From contig JAOZRC010000126.1 of the NCBI GenBank assembly GCA_029940345.1, forward strand, positions 1 to 10,667: a DNA stretch of 10,667 bases, in the 5' to 3' direction. The notes beneath the pieces are model-generated. The model made no database searches. It was not told the DNA's origin and was given only the letters and a program-made list of their open reading frames with translations. Position 1 is the stretch's first letter. The number at the start of each line of letters is the position of its first letter. The stretch comes from Desulfobacterales bacterium (GTDB taxonomy: Bacteria; Desulfobacterota; Desulfobacteria; Desulfobacterales; JAUCGF01). Below, piece by piece: positions 87-5,961 of this stretch. A program made the position numbers and the translations under genes.

Positions 87-422
87 TTAAAACAAAATCG
101 GTTCTATATGCATTAAAACTTCCTTGAGCAGCACATCAGGACATTTGCTAAGGAAAACCGCTTTTCGCGCCCTATAATCAAGAGACCTTAAACGATCTGC
201 CATTATCACACCCTTCACCTTCCCAGGTTTATCAATCGGAACATAAAACGGATTTTTGCGTTCAGTGGTGCTTATGGGACAAACAAAAACAACCCCCATC
301 TTCCTGTTAAATGAAGTGTGGCTTACGACTAAAGCAGGTCGGCTCCCCATTTGTTCATGCCCGGCTTGCGGATCGAAATCAAGTTGAATAAAATCACTGC
401 GTTTGGGGATATAGTTTACCAA
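87..422 (-). CDS. mazF: MazF/PemK-family mRNA interferase toxin
   Basis: Predicted 111-residue ribosome-independent endoribonuclease toxin of the MazF/PemK/ChpB family, which cleaves mRNA at short motifs and is neutralised by the MazE-type antitoxin encoded just upstream. The N-terminus (IPKRSDFIQLDFDP, residues 5-18) and the GHEQMGSRPALVVS stretch (21-34) match the beta-barrel core of E. coli MazF. They retain the conserved Glu23 and Arg28. CPISTTE (48-54) and ADRLRSLDYRARKA (75-88) match the remaining conserved blocks. The length equals that of E. coli MazF (111). The start codon is TTG; it is supported by a GAAGGAG ribosome-binding site at 430-436, seven bases upstream, and by the MV-x-YIP beginning usual in the family. 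The gene overlaps the end of mazE by 7 bases, implying translational coupling. It appears intact. Cleavage specificity cannot be read from the sequence. Confidence 0.92.
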   Translation of the reverse strand: MVNYIPKRSDFIQLDFDPQAGHEQMGSRPALVVSHTSFNRKMGVVFVCPISTTERKNPFYVPIDKPGKVKGVIMADRLRSLDYRARKAVFLSKCPDVLLKEVLMHIEPILF

Positions 423-667
423 ACTTCTTCTCCTTCAGGTTTGCCCCATGATATTTCTTCGCCAGGTTCTTCCACTTTGGCTAGCAATTCTTTAAGTGTA
501 TACTTCTCGACAGGACGCACTGGTTTCAGAATCAATTTTCCATCCTCAACAGCACAACTTATCTTGTCTTTTGGCTTCAATTGGAAAACCTCTGAAATAT
601 ACTTAGGGAACCTTATTCCAAGAGAATTTCCCCATTTCCCAATTTGCAACTCAATATCGTTTTGCAT
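416..667 (-). CDS. mazE: MazE-family antitoxin, AbrB/SpoVT-type DNA-binding
   Basis: Predicted 83-residue antitoxin that binds and inhibits the MazF toxin encoded directly downstream and, as a complex, represses its own promoter. An AbrB/SpoVT swapped-hairpin DNA-binding region lies at about residues 4-50, with the typical IGKWGNSLGIRFPK block at 8-21. The acidic tail, with EISWGKPEGEEVW at 71-83, resembles the MazF-wrapping C-terminus of MazE/PemI proteins. The start chosen is the ATG at 667, because a perfect AGGAGG (675-680) sits seven bases upstream. An ATG at 673 is only one base from that site, and the open frame reaching 709 would run into the operator. The stop overlaps the toxin start by 7 bases. 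Regulation: see the promoter and palindrome entries. Confidence 0.9.
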   Translation of the reverse strand: MQNDIELQIGKWGNSLGIRFPKYISEVFQLKPKDKISCAVEDGKLILKPVRPVEKYTLKELLAKVEEPGEEISWGKPEGEEVW

Positions 668-689
668 ATCCATACCTCCTGAATTTGAT

Positions 690-706
690 GATATACAATG
701 TATATC
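690..706. promoter_or_regulatory. Perfect 17-bp palindrome, probable MazE/MazEF operator
   Basis: GATATACA (690-697) and TGTATATC (699-706) are exact inverted repeats around one central A. The palindrome covers the -10 element and the likely transcription start of mazEF. That is the expected place for autorepression by an AbrB-type antitoxin. Binding is inferred from position and family behaviour, not shown. Confidence 0.65.
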
Positions 707-725
707 CAAAAGGGTATAATGTCAA
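697..725 (-). promoter_or_regulatory. mazEF promoter
   Basis: Minus-strand sigma70-type promoter: a perfect TTGACA -35 at 720-725, a 17-base spacer, and TACATT (4 of 6 consensus) as -10 at 697-702. Transcription would start near 690, leaving a leader of about 23 bases with the AGGAGG site. The -10 lies wholly inside the palindrome at 690-706. Confidence 0.65.
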
Positions 726-1015: not shown

Positions 1016-1699
1016 ATGTTAAAGAAATCTATCATTTTGATCAGTTTGTTGATCCTGGTCGGTGGGTGTTGGGAAACCGGGCTTAACCTGAACATTCGTT
1101 TTGACCAGGCACAGGGCATTGAAGTCAAGGATCGGGTTATTTTTGAAGGCAATCATATCGGTAGCGTCACCAAAGTGAATTATGCTGATTCCGGTGATTA
1201 TATTGTCAGTGTCACCATCCAGCCGAATTTTTCCAATACAGCGACCGAGGATTCCCAGTTTTTTATCATTGATGATCCGCAAAATGCGCAGCATAAAGCC
1301 ATTGAAGTGCTGCTGACTGCAAAAGGCGGAATGTTATTGGCCGATGGCGCTACGGTCACCGGTTCTGTCAAGCCATCAGCCGCAACGGAATTGTTCAATC
1401 AACTTGCCAGCGGCTGGAGCATTGGTATGAAACTGTTCGGCGACCAATTAGGTGATTGGCAAAAACAATTTGATTCCTTTTCCAAAGAGTTGGAAAAAAT
1501 TCCTGACAGTGAAGCCTACAAGCAGCTTGAAGCCGAATTCGACCGTCTGGTTGAGAAGATGAAACATTCTGGCGATGAAGTTCGGGAGACGATTCAAAAG
1601 GATATTTTGCCGCGGTTGGAAGAGGAGATGGAAAAGATGAAAAAGCGATTGGAACAAGCGCAACCCAAGGAAAAAACGGCACCGAAAACCGAAACCTGA
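1016..1699 (+). CDS. MCE-domain (MlaD-like) lipoprotein
   Basis: Predicted 227-residue periplasmic lipoprotein with one MCE domain, the module used by MlaD, PqiB and Mce proteins to bind or channel lipids between membranes. Residues 1-17 form a basic, hydrophobic signal peptide ending in a lipobox (VGG before Cys18). The +2 residue is Trp rather than Asp, which in enterobacteria would not signal inner-membrane retention. The MCE domain spans about 23-119; LNIRFDQAQGIEVKDRV (24-40) and GNHIGSVTKV (45-54) match its usual start. Residues 145-215 are charged and heptad-like, probably a coiled coil, and the tail is rich in Lys, Pro and Thr. The start is supported by AAAGGAGGTG five bases upstream. 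Usual MCE proteins are anchored by a transmembrane helix and sit with MlaE/MlaF-type genes. None is present here, so this is an orphan of uncertain partner. It converges on the reductase gene. Confidence 0.82.
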   Translation: MLKKSIILISLLILVGGCWETGLNLNIRFDQAQGIEVKDRVIFEGNHIGSVTKVNYADSGDYIVSVTIQPNFSNTATEDSQFFIIDDPQNAQHKAIEVLLTAKGGMLLADGATVTGSVKPSAATELFNQLASGWSIGMKLFGDQLGDWQKQFDSFSKELEKIPDSEAYKQLEAEFDRLVEKMKHSGDEVRETIQKDILPRLEEEMEKMKKRLEQAQPKEKTAPKTET

Positions 1700-2026: not shown

Positions 2027-4096
2027 TTAAGCCCTTTCAGACACATCCGCTTTGGCCTGGCGCGCCAGTTCCGCCACGCGTTCAATATCTTCATCAGAAA
2101 ACACCCCGTTCACACCGGAAATGGCGGCCAGTTTCATACCGTGCTTGAGCCCCAATTGGTAGATTTCACGCACTTTTTCCCACTGGATATTACGACCCAC
2201 GGTAAACGTTTCAAAACGTCCTTCCAGTGCCAGCACAATGGTTTCAGCTAGACAGGCATAGGCAACTTTGGGCGGCAGGCCAATATTTTTCATCTCCGGG
2301 TTTCCCGGAAGCTCGATTTCACCGGATTCGATGACCAGCACATCGGGGCGTTTGGCCACATCTTCAGGCGAAAGATCCAACGGTCGCGCCACATCGGTAA
2401 TCACGCAACCGGGTTTTACTTTCATAATGTCCAACACTTTTTTACCCGCCCCCGAAGTCGCGGTGACAATCACATCCATATCCGCCAGGTTTTTGTCCGC
2501 GCGGGTGGAGATATGAAGCTTCACATCCGGCGTTTCTTCGGAGATTGACTCTTTGAGGGCCAACAGTTTGGCCATATTGCGGCCTATCAGATGAACTTCC
2601 GTAAAGGCTTTGGCCAGCAGACGGCTGCACACGGACCCAATCGCGCCGGTGGCGCCCAGCACCATTGTTTTTCCCAGAATTTTATGACCGTGCTCAATTT
2701 TAATCATTCCGATACGGCGGACCGCATCGGCAGCGGCCCAGAGCGCAGCGGAAGCGCTGTAGCTGTTCCCGGTTGTAATCGGAATATCGGAAAGTTTGGC
2801 GACGGTGACGCCGGCATCACCCACGACTTTGGTAAAAGCGCCCAATCCCATAATTTGGGCACCCATACGTTTGGCCATACGTGCGGCTTGAAGCAGTCGT
2901 TTGTAGGTAAATTCGGCGTCATGCGCCAGCATCTGTTTGGGCGTTCCGCCAACCGTGATCAGCCACCCTTCGGCTTCCACGCCGGTGGGAGATTTAATGC
3001 CCGTGACTTTGGAATAGACCCAGGGCGGGGCGTAAGCCACCAATTTCTCCACAGTGTCTAAAAAGGCCGGGGGAGTGAATGCCGCCAGGTAATCAATGGT
3101 TTTATCTTTTTTTAATTGCGCCTGGGAAAGCGGGTGGATGACAAAGGCAAAGCGATTGATGCACTTGGCCTTTCCGGAAGGGTACACCACGCGGGGGTCC
3201 ATCTTTTGTTCACTGATCACTTCCAATAAATCATCATCCGTCACCTGTTCTTTCTTTTTGTCCAATGCAGCGACAATGATGGCTTCAAGAACGGACAATC
3301 CCACAACGCGCTCAAATAATTTGGGCGTTGCATCAATGATAACATCAACGCCTCTTTCCTTTAAAAAAGTGACCCGGTCATCATAAGCGGTCACTGTAAT
3401 CACGGTTTTCCCGCCCAACTCTTCAATCGAACAATTTTCAAGCTGTTTATAGAAATCGTAATAAGGAACAACAATAACAGTCGCCTTTTGGATCGCTTTG
3501 CGCATAATATAATCGTTCCACGAACGGATAGGCGTTACGGAAGATGACAGCCGTTTACTGGGAATCCATTTAAGCACTTCATGGATACCGGTGGCATACC
3601 GATCCAGGTCCGCAAGGGAATTTAAAAATTTGGAAATCCCATTTTCCAACACGGGGTCTGCAAATGTCAGATTATCGGTGAATTCGGACATCACTTTGGC
3701 AATTCGGTAATTCACCAGGCCGGAAAGGAACAACACCCGGGCGTTATTAAAATAATTGCCGAATTTAAATTGAATATGGCGCAGTGACCATTCAAACGCC
3801 ACATTACGCAATGCATCACCCGTTGTAACAGGCGTCTGAATTTTGGAAGTTAATATCTCCATGTTGCGCGCATGCTTGGCTTTAAGCCATTTCGGTCCGA
3901 CGGCATTGGGAAATTTGACGCCGCTCAGTCCGATTACATCCGCTTTGCCATCCCATTCCAGCATTTTTTCGGCAGCGCGGTCTATATTACCGTCAACCCC
4001 GATGCGTTTGATATGAAAATCCGAACCTAAAAACTCAGTTTCAAATTCGTAGTTGTCATTATGCGGACCCAGGCTGATGTTTATAATTTTTTTCAT
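2027..4096 (-). CDS. Acyl-ACP reductase (AAR)-like dehydrogenase with large N-terminal domain
   Basis: Predicted 689-residue cytosolic NAD(P)H-dependent reductase. Residues about 316-665 align by eye with the whole of cyanobacterial long-chain acyl-ACP reductase, which reduces fatty acyl-ACP to fatty aldehyde. The matching blocks are FAFVIHPLS (317-324 region; AAR begins FGLIGHLTS), GLGAFTKVVG (417-426), TTGNSYSASA (441-450), the Rossmann motif GATGAIGSV (481-489), AYACLAE (612-618) holding Cys615 at the position of the acyl-accepting Cys of AAR, and VGRNIQWEKV (633-642). Residues 1-315 are extra. ISLG (7-10) and the GSDFHIKRIGVDGNIDRA stretch (24-41) resemble, from memory, proteins annotated as quinate 5-dehydrogenase in Firmicutes; that name is unproven. 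AAR itself is about 341 residues. The ATG overlaps the ferredoxin stop (ATGA) and has GGAGG six bases upstream. Substrate is inferred; an aromatic or CoA-thioester substrate remains possible. Confidence 0.75.
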   Translation of the reverse strand: MKKIINISLGPHNDNYEFETEFLGSDFHIKRIGVDGNIDRAAEKMLEWDGKADVIGLSGVKFPNAVGPKWLKAKHARNMEILTSKIQTPVTTGDALRNVAFEWSLRHIQFKFGNYFNNARVLFLSGLVNYRIAKVMSEFTDNLTFADPVLENGISKFLNSLADLDRYATGIHEVLKWIPSKRLSSSVTPIRSWNDYIMRKAIQKATVIVVPYYDFYKQLENCSIEELGGKTVITVTAYDDRVTFLKERGVDVIIDATPKLFERVVGLSVLEAIIVAALDKKKEQVTDDDLLEVISEQKMDPRVVYPSGKAKCINRFAFVIHPLSQAQLKKDKTIDYLAAFTPPAFLDTVEKLVAYAPPWVYSKVTGIKSPTGVEAEGWLITVGGTPKQMLAHDAEFTYKRLLQAARMAKRMGAQIMGLGAFTKVVGDAGVTVAKLSDIPITTGNSYSASAALWAAADAVRRIGMIKIEHGHKILGKTMVLGATGAIGSVCSRLLAKAFTEVHLIGRNMAKLLALKESISEETPDVKLHISTRADKNLADMDVIVTATSGAGKKVLDIMKVKPGCVITDVARPLDLSPEDVAKRPDVLVIESGEIELPGNPEMKNIGLPPKVAYACLAETIVLALEGRFETFTVGRNIQWEKVREIYQLGLKHGMKLAAISGVNGVFSDEDIERVAELARQAKADVSERA

Positions 4097-4347
4097 TTTT
4101 CCCCTCCGGTAAAGCGGTTATGGCTGTCTGTTGTGATAGCGTCGGCCGGACAGATATTTACCGCTTCCATACACAAAGCGTGTTCTTGGGCGTTATCCGG
4201 CTGTTTAATCACATAGCAATACCCATATTCAACAGTTTCATCCGCATTGGCGGCAAAATTGGTCGGTGCGATAGCGACGCAAAGGTCGCAACCGATACAT
4301 TTATCGGTAACCGAATATGGGCCTTTGATATTTTCGATGAAGATCAT
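4093..4347 (-). CDS. Single-cluster [4Fe-4S] ferredoxin
   Basis: Predicted 84-residue electron carrier. Cys17, Cys20 and Cys23 (CIGCDLC) plus the distant Cys66 followed by Pro67 are the four ligands of one [4Fe-4S] cluster. The position that would donate a fourth local cysteine for a second cluster is Ala27 (CVAIAP). This is the arrangement of mono-cluster ferredoxins such as Desulfovibrio-type Fd I, and GYCYVIKQP (42-50) also matches that group. Cys44 and Cys59 are additional and could form a disulfide or be incidental. The stop codon overlaps the start of the reductase gene by 4 bases, so the two are co-translated and the ferredoxin is a probable electron partner, or regulator, of the AAR-like protein. 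No Shine-Dalgarno sequence is visible before the ATG, and a candidate -10 at 4362-4367 would give a nearly leaderless transcript. Confidence 0.88.
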   Translation of the reverse strand: MIFIENIKGPYSVTDKCIGCDLCVAIAPTNFAANADETVEYGYCYVIKQPDNAQEHALCMEAVNICPADAITTDSHNRFTGGEK

Positions 4348-4357
4348 AATGAACGTC

Positions 4358-4385
4358 GAACACTATAAACACGATATCAGTGTTC
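4358..4385. promoter_or_regulatory. Inverted-repeat operator candidate upstream of ferredoxin
   Basis: GAACACT (4358-4364) and AGTGTTC (4379-4385) are exact 7-bp inverted repeats whose centres are 21 bases apart, two helical turns. A third, inner half-site AACAC at 4368-4372 pairs with GTGTT at 4380-4384. On the minus strand a TATAGT (4362-4367) that could be the ferredoxin -10 falls within it, but a good -35 is lacking. The geometry suits a dimeric repressor (for example TetR or GntR type); the regulator is not in the window. Confidence 0.45.
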
Positions 4386-4394
4386 AGCAGCGCC

Positions 4395-4422
4395 TTGACA
4401 CCTGAAACAATGTTTGTTTAAT
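4395..4422 (+). promoter_or_regulatory. Promoter for polysaccharide gene cluster
   Basis: A perfect TTGACA -35 (4395-4400), a 16-base spacer, and TTTAAT (5 of 6 consensus) as -10 (4417-4422). Transcription would begin near 4429, about 75 bases before the ATG of the Wzy/WaaL-like gene. The -35 overlaps the dispersed 12-mer GACACCTGAAAC. Confidence 0.55.
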
Positions 4423-4503
4423 ATTGATACAAAAGCAAATGTTTGATAATAGCATGTACAAAATACTTTTTAAAGAAGAATTAACCCTTTCGATGAATTG
4501 CGA

Positions 4504-5961
4504 ATGCGAATCACTTCAAACCAAAACATAACCGTAATTATCGGTTTCACGGCCTTGCTGTTTGGATATGTCCTTGCCCTTTTATTGCACAACCATGCAA
4601 TGCTCATCACCGTTCTGATGGCGGGTATGCCGCTTCTATTGCTTACGCCTTTTAGCACAACCCGACGAATCGCATTGATATTGTTAATCACATTGGTGCC
4701 TTTAACCGGTATACTCAAACCGCTGACAGGTATTCGCTATGCGCCGATCACCTTTGATATCGGTATTTTAATCGCATGTGTTTTCGATTTGATTGATCGT
4801 ATTTTGCAGCGTAATCTGCGATTTGACATTTTAGATTATCTAATGGGGGCATTTTTTGTATTGGCTTTACTGCAGATATTTAATCCCAATGTGCCTGGTT
4901 TAAGAGCGGGGATTGAAGGCTTCCGCAAATTTGCATTTATGAGTGTTGCTTTTTATGCGGGTCGTCACATCTTAAGTTTCCACGATCTGAAACTTTTCCA
5001 AAAACTGATTTTACCGATTTCATCATGTATCGCTTTTTATGGTCTCAAACAATTTTTTTACATGTCCGAATTTGATTACAAAGTCTTGGAATTGTCTACC
5101 GGCAGTCCGACAACCTATCTTTTGGGTGGCTGGATTCGACCGTTTTCAATATTGCCGGGACCATTTCATCTGGGATTATATTTATTAATAACGATTATTT
5201 TTATCATAGGATATTTGCTTAATGGAAAAAAGCAACTTCCTGTATGGGTTTTAATGCTCCTGGTGTTAAGCATCCAGTTAGCGAGTTTATTCGTTACGCG
5301 AACAAAAGGCAATTGGGTCGCATTGCTCATTGGGCTGACGGTGCTTATTGTATTTCAACAGCGTGGCTCAAGGGTCTGGCAGATATTGAGCATCGTGACG
5401 TTTATTGGGATAATAATCAGTGGTCTTCATTGGGTAATGCCGTCCATAACCGTATCTGAAATATTTTTCAAAAGCGTATCTGCCGTTGCCAATCCGATTG
5501 AAGCGCCTACATTGCAACTTCGACTTGACCTATGGAAATATAGTATTTTTCCGGCGCTCAAACTTCATCCTCTTTTAGGGTATGGCACCAGTAGTGCCGG
5601 TGAAGGTTTGGCACATCTTTACAGGGGATTGTCCTCGTCATATTTTTATAGCCATAATCTGTACTTCAAAGTATGCCTTGAATTAGGTCTTATTGGCTTT
5701 TTCCTCTTTTTAACTGTTATCGGAATGAGTATTTATAAAGGAAGCGGAGAGGTAATTCAGGCCAACGACCTTTCAGAAGAGTACTCTGGTTTCGGGATAA
5801 TCAGCATAGCTGTGATTTGGGCGTTTTTAACTGCCGGCTTGGTATCGCCGGTTTTAGATGCCGCTCCGATAAACTATTATTTCTGGTTGCTGCTTGGTTT
5901 TCTATCAAAGTTGCATCAGACCGAGAGATACGATGAAACTGGTGACGATTCCCTTTCATGA
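4504..5961 (+). CDS. O-antigen ligase/polymerase (WaaL/Wzy-like) membrane protein
   Basis: Predicted 485-residue polytopic inner-membrane protein with about a dozen hydrophobic segments, of the Wzy_C (O-antigen ligase/polymerase) superfamily. These enzymes join or polymerise undecaprenyl-linked glycans on the periplasmic side. Hallmarks are the conserved basic segment TRTKGNW (about residues 265-271) at the start of a membrane helix, HPLLGYG (355-361) in the large periplasmic loop, and SHNLYFKVCLELGLIGFF (383-400), the typical SHN..E.G motif leading into the next helix. Sequence alone does not separate ligase from polymerase or exopolysaccharide functions. The start is uncertain: ATG at 4504 is preferred over an in-frame TTG at 4498, and neither has a clear ribosome-binding site. 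The 3' end overlaps the glycosyltransferase start by 29 bases, indicating an operon. No other assembly genes (flippase, initiating transferase) are visible. Confidence 0.85.
   Translation: MRITSNQNITVIIGFTALLFGYVLALLLHNHAMLITVLMAGMPLLLLTPFSTTRRIALILLITLVPLTGILKPLTGIRYAPITFDIGILIACVFDLIDRILQRNLRFDILDYLMGAFFVLALLQIFNPNVPGLRAGIEGFRKFAFMSVAFYAGRHILSFHDLKLFQKLILPISSCIAFYGLKQFFYMSEFDYKVLELSTGSPTTYLLGGWIRPFSILPGPFHLGLYLLITIIFIIGYLLNGKKQLPVWVLMLLVLSIQLASLFVTRTKGNWVALLIGLTVLIVFQQRGSRVWQILSIVTFIGIIISGLHWVMPSITVSEIFFKSVSAVANPIEAPTLQLRLDLWKYSIFPALKLHPLLGYGTSSAGEGLAHLYRGLSSSYFYSHNLYFKVCLELGLIGFFLFLTVIGMSIYKGSGEVIQANDLSEEYSGFGIISIAVIWAFLTAGLVSPVLDAAPINYYFWLLLGFLSKLHQTERYDETGDDSLS

Follow-up and report, generated by a model that had tools for sequence, protein, structure and literature searches.

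What does a reductase of the cyanobacterial AAR type do in a member of the Desulfobacterales? The question is raised by a gene on the minus strand (2027..4096; 689 codons plus stop) of the 10,667-nucleotide stretch of DNA analysed here in full length (the window). The first-pass annotation had proposed that its product makes fatty aldehyde for ether lipids, alcohols or hydrocarbons in an apparent anaerobe. The host is indeed a relative of sulfate reducers (Desulfobacterales, Thermodesulfobacteriota) and the proposed reductase type is supported, whereas the context points to wax-ester and neutral-lipid synthesis rather than to ether lipids or hydrocarbons. We propose, with a probability of roughly 0.7, that the protein is a fatty-acyl thioester reductase supplying fatty aldehyde for the synthesis of wax esters, a neutral storage lipid, in anaerobic Desulfobacterales. 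This reading rests on the AAR fold, the conserved cysteine, nucleotide loop and arginine, the association with WS/DGAT in both genome content and gene order, and the upstream ferredoxin.

The AAR-type domain and its neighborhood

The C-terminal domain (residues 315-673; 2078..3154, minus strand) shares the fold of SeAAR (6jzq/6jzy), so that the structure comparison suggested from the sequence bears out a thioester reductase domain of the AAR type, in which the cysteine is present. The dinucleotide loop GATGAIG (residues 481-487; 2636..2656, minus strand) corresponds to GATGDIG 162-168 of SeAAR, Cys615 (codon 2252..2254, minus strand) is the equivalent of Cys294, and Arg635 (codon 2192..2194, minus strand) is that of R314. 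The NADPH-phosphate residues R189, R193 and R314 of SeAAR, as given in an excerpt of PMC7089970, are represented by R506, K510 (Lys for Arg) and R635. The window protein missed the cut-off of the curated AAR model TIGR04058 (73 bits vs 449.7) and is therefore a relative that falls outside that equivalog.

Among the NCBIfam models it matches PigE best (3.7e-53), and TamH-like aminotransferase-reductase proteins also occur in two genomes of the order (G014 and G040), both of which would suit a thioester reductase for a small metabolite, comparable to PigE or TamH. We consider such a function quite improbable, given that the PigE cut-off is far missed (181 vs 850 bits), that a domain search of the window protein gave no match to an aminotransferase domain, and that storage lipid is the usual context of the gene.

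Directly upstream lies a gene for a 4Fe-4S ferredoxin of the single-cluster family (84 aa; 4093..4347, minus strand; Fer4_13 1.7e-13), the stop of which has 4 bases in common with the reductase start. The other genes in the window, among them those for an O-antigen-ligase-like protein, a glycosyltransferase, a nitroreductase and glyS, look unrelated. A pair comprising a MazF-like toxin and a MazE-like antitoxin (87-709, minus strand; PemK_toxin 7.8e-24, MazE 1.2e-06) stands beside the reductase locus, and the gene for a short MCE/MlaD-domain protein detected by domain search (1016-1699, plus strand), with a possible role in lipid transport, converges on the reductase gene. No aldehyde-deformylating oxygenase was seen among the annotated neighbor genes.

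The host genome (6.05 Mb, 1024 contigs, 93% complete) carries one copy of the reductase gene, which is not adjacent to WS/DGAT; the latter is found on contig C471 (387 bits, cut-off 310), with the motif HHxxxDG, which we take to be catalytic. A full-length Fe-ADH/SCP2 (65% identity) is encoded on contig C691, the genome search revealed no HMGR-type FcrA, and the best NAD_binding_4 match reached only 63.7 bits. The organism seems to have only the Cys-containing reductase (hereinafter copy A) and Fe-ADH/SCP2.

The N-terminal domain

As the first-pass annotation noted, a long extra domain (residues 1-314; 3155..4096, minus strand) precedes the full AAR-type domain. It had been likened to quinate dehydrogenase; judging by the structure model, it is probably another AAR fold, degenerate and lacking both GxxGxxG and Cys. 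With this model as the Foldseek query, the top row was a sugar-binding protein and AAR-type chains came second and third, at TM-scores of about 0.45. In a hand alignment anchored on E271/E618, S268 occupies the place of Cys615; of 145 rows, 83 have Asn at this position and 46 have Ser.

The sequence signal is weak, and the case for homology of the two domains is mainly structural. In the first profile comparison only the overlapping ends of the two alignments matched; after trimming, the E-value was 0.0054, at a score of 28.7 vs 26.1 for an unrelated control family. The middle segments matched each other (E 4e-4), the C-terminal segments gave nothing (a score reached by 131 of 200 shuffles), and the whole-domain score was reached in none of 60 shuffles. 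Stand-alone relatives of the N-terminal domain (P0242, P0247 and P0248; 301-308 aa, 24-27% identity) show no match to the C-terminal domain. The N-terminal pseudo-AAR unit could act as a docking or dimer-like partner.

Association with wax-ester genes

WS/DGAT is present in 9 of 58 genomes (the host and its relatives), and all 9 encode the full-length reductase; a genome of the same genus (G001) encodes the reductase without any WS/DGAT match, and the one match in G014, a weak one, is a TamH-like protein. We then considered a sample of 389 genomes of the order, with WS/DGAT defined as PF03007 over the cut-off (a weak match in G603 was dropped) and the reductase as E<=1e-50. In this sample WS/DGAT was found in 67 genomes, the reductase in 71 and both in 62, spanning 20 families (Fisher p 9e-56, uncorrected for descent). 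Five genomes encode WS/DGAT without the reductase (G481, G513, G521, G657 and G722), and nine of the 71 have the reductase without PF03007 over the cut-off (G001, G458, G463, G494, G518, G575, G701, G710 and G765, the last with a piece of WS/DGAT on a short contig). Outside the order WS/DGAT occurs without the reductase: in a phylum sample of 395 genomes, PF03007 was detected in 17 (15 over the cut-off), the N-terminal domain in 3 and both in 2, leaving 15 of the 17 PF03007-positive genomes without this domain. Fe-ADH/SCP2 (E<=1e-110) is encoded in 39 of the 71 reductase genomes, a count that includes a few partial matches and one that is just 42% identical, in none of the five with WS/DGAT only and in 1 of 48 with neither.

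Other fatty acyl reductases were surveyed with NAD_binding_4, the family to which FarA and AcrB presumably belong, and HMGR. The NAD_binding_4 probe is unspecific, matching in all 14 control genomes, and was therefore counted only at >=110 bits, a threshold of our choosing; some matches above it sit in frames of >1000 residues and are not necessarily fatty acyl reductases. Neither a NAD_binding_4 match at this level nor HMGR was found in 31 of the 67 WS/DGAT genomes, 26 of which have the AAR-type reductase; the five WS/DGAT genomes without that reductase likewise gave neither. A strong match to one or the other is present in the remaining 36, and other reductases may therefore act there.

Gene order points in the same direction, and both the WS/DGAT cluster and the tandem Cys-less paralog (copy B) found in relatives were missed in the first pass. 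In a tblastn survey of 32 loci from named genomes, fetched by the reductase protein alone and several of them short, WS/DGAT was found in 22, ferredoxin in 22 and Fe-ADH/SCP2 in 13 (one just 36% identical); the other members are PhaR/phasin-like proteins, a patatin-like protein, an alpha/beta hydrolase, a UbiB-type kinase and two uncharacterised proteins. The typical order is seen at locus L007, where one arm consists of WS/DGAT, ferredoxin, A, B, the hydrolase and the UbiB-like gene, and the divergent arm of Fe-ADH/SCP2, patatin, a FFLEELY protein, two PhaR-like genes and an unknown gene. The two PhaR/phasin-like proteins at this locus (3842-5042) resemble PHA-granule regulators, which may serve lipid granules instead. 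A longer second WS/DGAT (745-757 aa) lies downstream of the A/B pair at L026 (10866-13136), L014 (8193-10427) and L073 (3271-5541); the L026 protein, the one scanned, has a C-terminal esterase-like match.

On the proposed pathway, an acyl group from CoA or ACP would be transferred to Cys615, and the resulting thioester would be reduced by NAD(P)H to the aldehyde, as in AAR (excerpt of PMC7089970). Fe-ADH/SCP2 or copy B would then convert the aldehyde to fatty alcohol, which WS/DGAT would join to a second acyl-CoA to yield a wax ester. Such a cluster predicts anaerobic wax storage in Desulfobacterales. WS/DGAT can also make triacylglycerol, for which no aldehyde is needed, and may do so here.

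Sulfate reducers contain ether lipids (PMC11150832, in part), and the aldehyde or alcohol could in principle supply alkyl ether lipids or plasmalogens. We regard this as highly improbable: in the same excerpt the ethers are made by glycerol ester reduction with Ger, and those of Desulfatibacillum are attributed to glycerol ester reductase (PMC11150832), while the annotated neighbors are WS/DGAT, lipase-like and PhaR-like genes, none of which was identified by annotation as Ger or PlsA.

Bacteria that make wax esters require a fatty acyl reductase. According to PMC11948995, FarA, AcrB and FcrA are found in 1%, 31% and 26% of WS/DGAT bacteria, respectively, so that at least 42% lack all three; for a major group of marine anaerobes, the gene described here offers a candidate for the missing enzyme that can be put to the test. 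A 2023 survey states, perhaps incompletely, that no WE/TAG accumulation had been reported from Deltaproteobacteria; the gene context of deltaproteobacterial WS/DGAT was beyond what that survey could analyse (PMC10351704). No description of the cluster was found among the matches listed in the open-licence literature searched, an absence that is weak because only open-licence papers, among the matches listed, were covered.

The Cys-less paralog

Of the 71 genomes with the reductase, 69 were used to read copies around the listed matches; G518, G710 and 12 partial matches were left out. After shorter pieces were dropped, this gave at least 134 copies, each >=550 aa, and the counts that follow refer to these listed matches. 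Residue 615 is Cys in 85 of the 134, Gly in 29 and Ser in 20 (49 non-Cys). Arg635 is kept in all 85 Cys copies, in none of the 29 Gly copies and in 13 of the 20 Ser copies. WS/DGAT is on the same stretch for 28 of the 85 Cys, 22 of the 29 Gly and 1 of the 20 Ser copies. Among 30 stretches with two copies on the same strand, 27 have the order Cys-Gly, one Cys-Ser and two Cys-Cys, and by genome both kinds are present in 46 of the 69, Cys copies only in 20 and non-Cys copies only in 3. A ferredoxin gene lies <=700 bp upstream of 53 of the 85 Cys copies and of none of the 49 others.

This ferredoxin, together with the patatin-like, alpha/beta-hydrolase and alcohol dehydrogenase genes of the cluster, would also fit the reverse reaction, from fatty aldehyde to acyl thioester when wax esters, fatty alcohols or alkanes are consumed, with electrons passed onward via ferredoxin. 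That direction appears unlikely, since AAR reduces thioesters with NADPH (PMC7089970, in part) and the NADPH-phosphate pocket residues are kept here, and since the WS/DGAT encoded in this cluster acts in synthesis.

Both phylogenetic trees were of a quick kind. The second was built on 70 chosen rows; in it a single clade (SH-aLRT 99) unites the non-Cys copies, 15 with Gly, 11 with Ser and one with Ala, the last from a genome outside the order (G133). Copy B has neither the cysteine nor, when it is of the Gly form, the NADPH-phosphate arginine, but the nucleotide loop is kept (GxxGxxG in all of the 19 B copies examined). For 11 chosen pairs dN/dS was 0.05-0.17 in the non-Cys vs 0.04-0.13 in the Cys copies, the non-Cys ratios being rough for the 8 of 11 pairs with dS above 1; given these low values, similar to those of the Cys copies, and the full lengths (680-743 aa among the 49 listed non-Cys copies), copy B looks selected rather than decaying.

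Desulfonema magnum (G494, L162) has a single copy with Ser in place of Cys615, which falls inside the Cys group in the second tree and beside clade B in the first. Neither WS/DGAT nor Fe-ADH/SCP2 was found in its single-contig genome, which together with the Ser copy fits a relic or a changed role. Eleven genomes of family f59 (G384, G537 and nine others) have three copies on separate contigs, two Cys and one Ser among the listed matches, and all eleven are without Fe-ADH/SCP2 at E<=1e-110; in this family WS/DGAT is on two fetched stretches only (L144 and L150).

The tandem A/B arrangement might represent a new kind of alcohol-forming fatty-acyl reductase, in which A would make the aldehyde and B reduce it to the alcohol: a four-electron system for anaerobic wax storage, with four AAR-fold units and a single catalytic thiol, derived by two rounds of duplication. 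We offer this as a tentative scheme that is rather doubtful at present; a further idea is that in family f59 the B copy with Ser might take the place of Fe-ADH/SCP2. The Cys-less paralog constitutes a natural test of whether the AAR fold can become an aldehyde reductase.

Comparison with known systems

One of the closest parallels is cyanobacterial AAR (EC 1.2.1.80), which resembles the window protein in fold, in the pairs Cys294/C615, GATGDIG/GATGAIG, R189/R506, R193/K510, R314/R635 and H7/H321. The two share 26% identity, and the window protein differs by its extra 314-residue N-terminal unit, by R571 in place of Y247 and by its wax-ester context, as opposed to the aldehyde-deformylating oxygenase partner of AAR. 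PigE and TamH also contain an AAR-type reductase domain with the conserved Cys within a fusion protein (excerpts of PMC8341465 and PMC9594044), but their partner is an aminotransferase, whereas in the window protein the partner is another AAR-like unit. Two genomes of the same order encode TamH-like aminotransferase proteins, 972-977 aa in length, that match PigE (L053, 5462-8377; L054, 7779-10709). The carmabin TAD reductase (9e4s and others) belongs, by its PDB description, to a biosynthetic pathway protein without a wax context. With FarA, AcrB and FcrA, the fatty acyl-CoA reductases of wax-ester bacteria, the window reductase shares the expected supply of fatty alcohol to WS/DGAT; FcrA is a member of the HMG-CoA reductase family (PMC11948995, in part), unlike the window reductase, which is of the AAR type.
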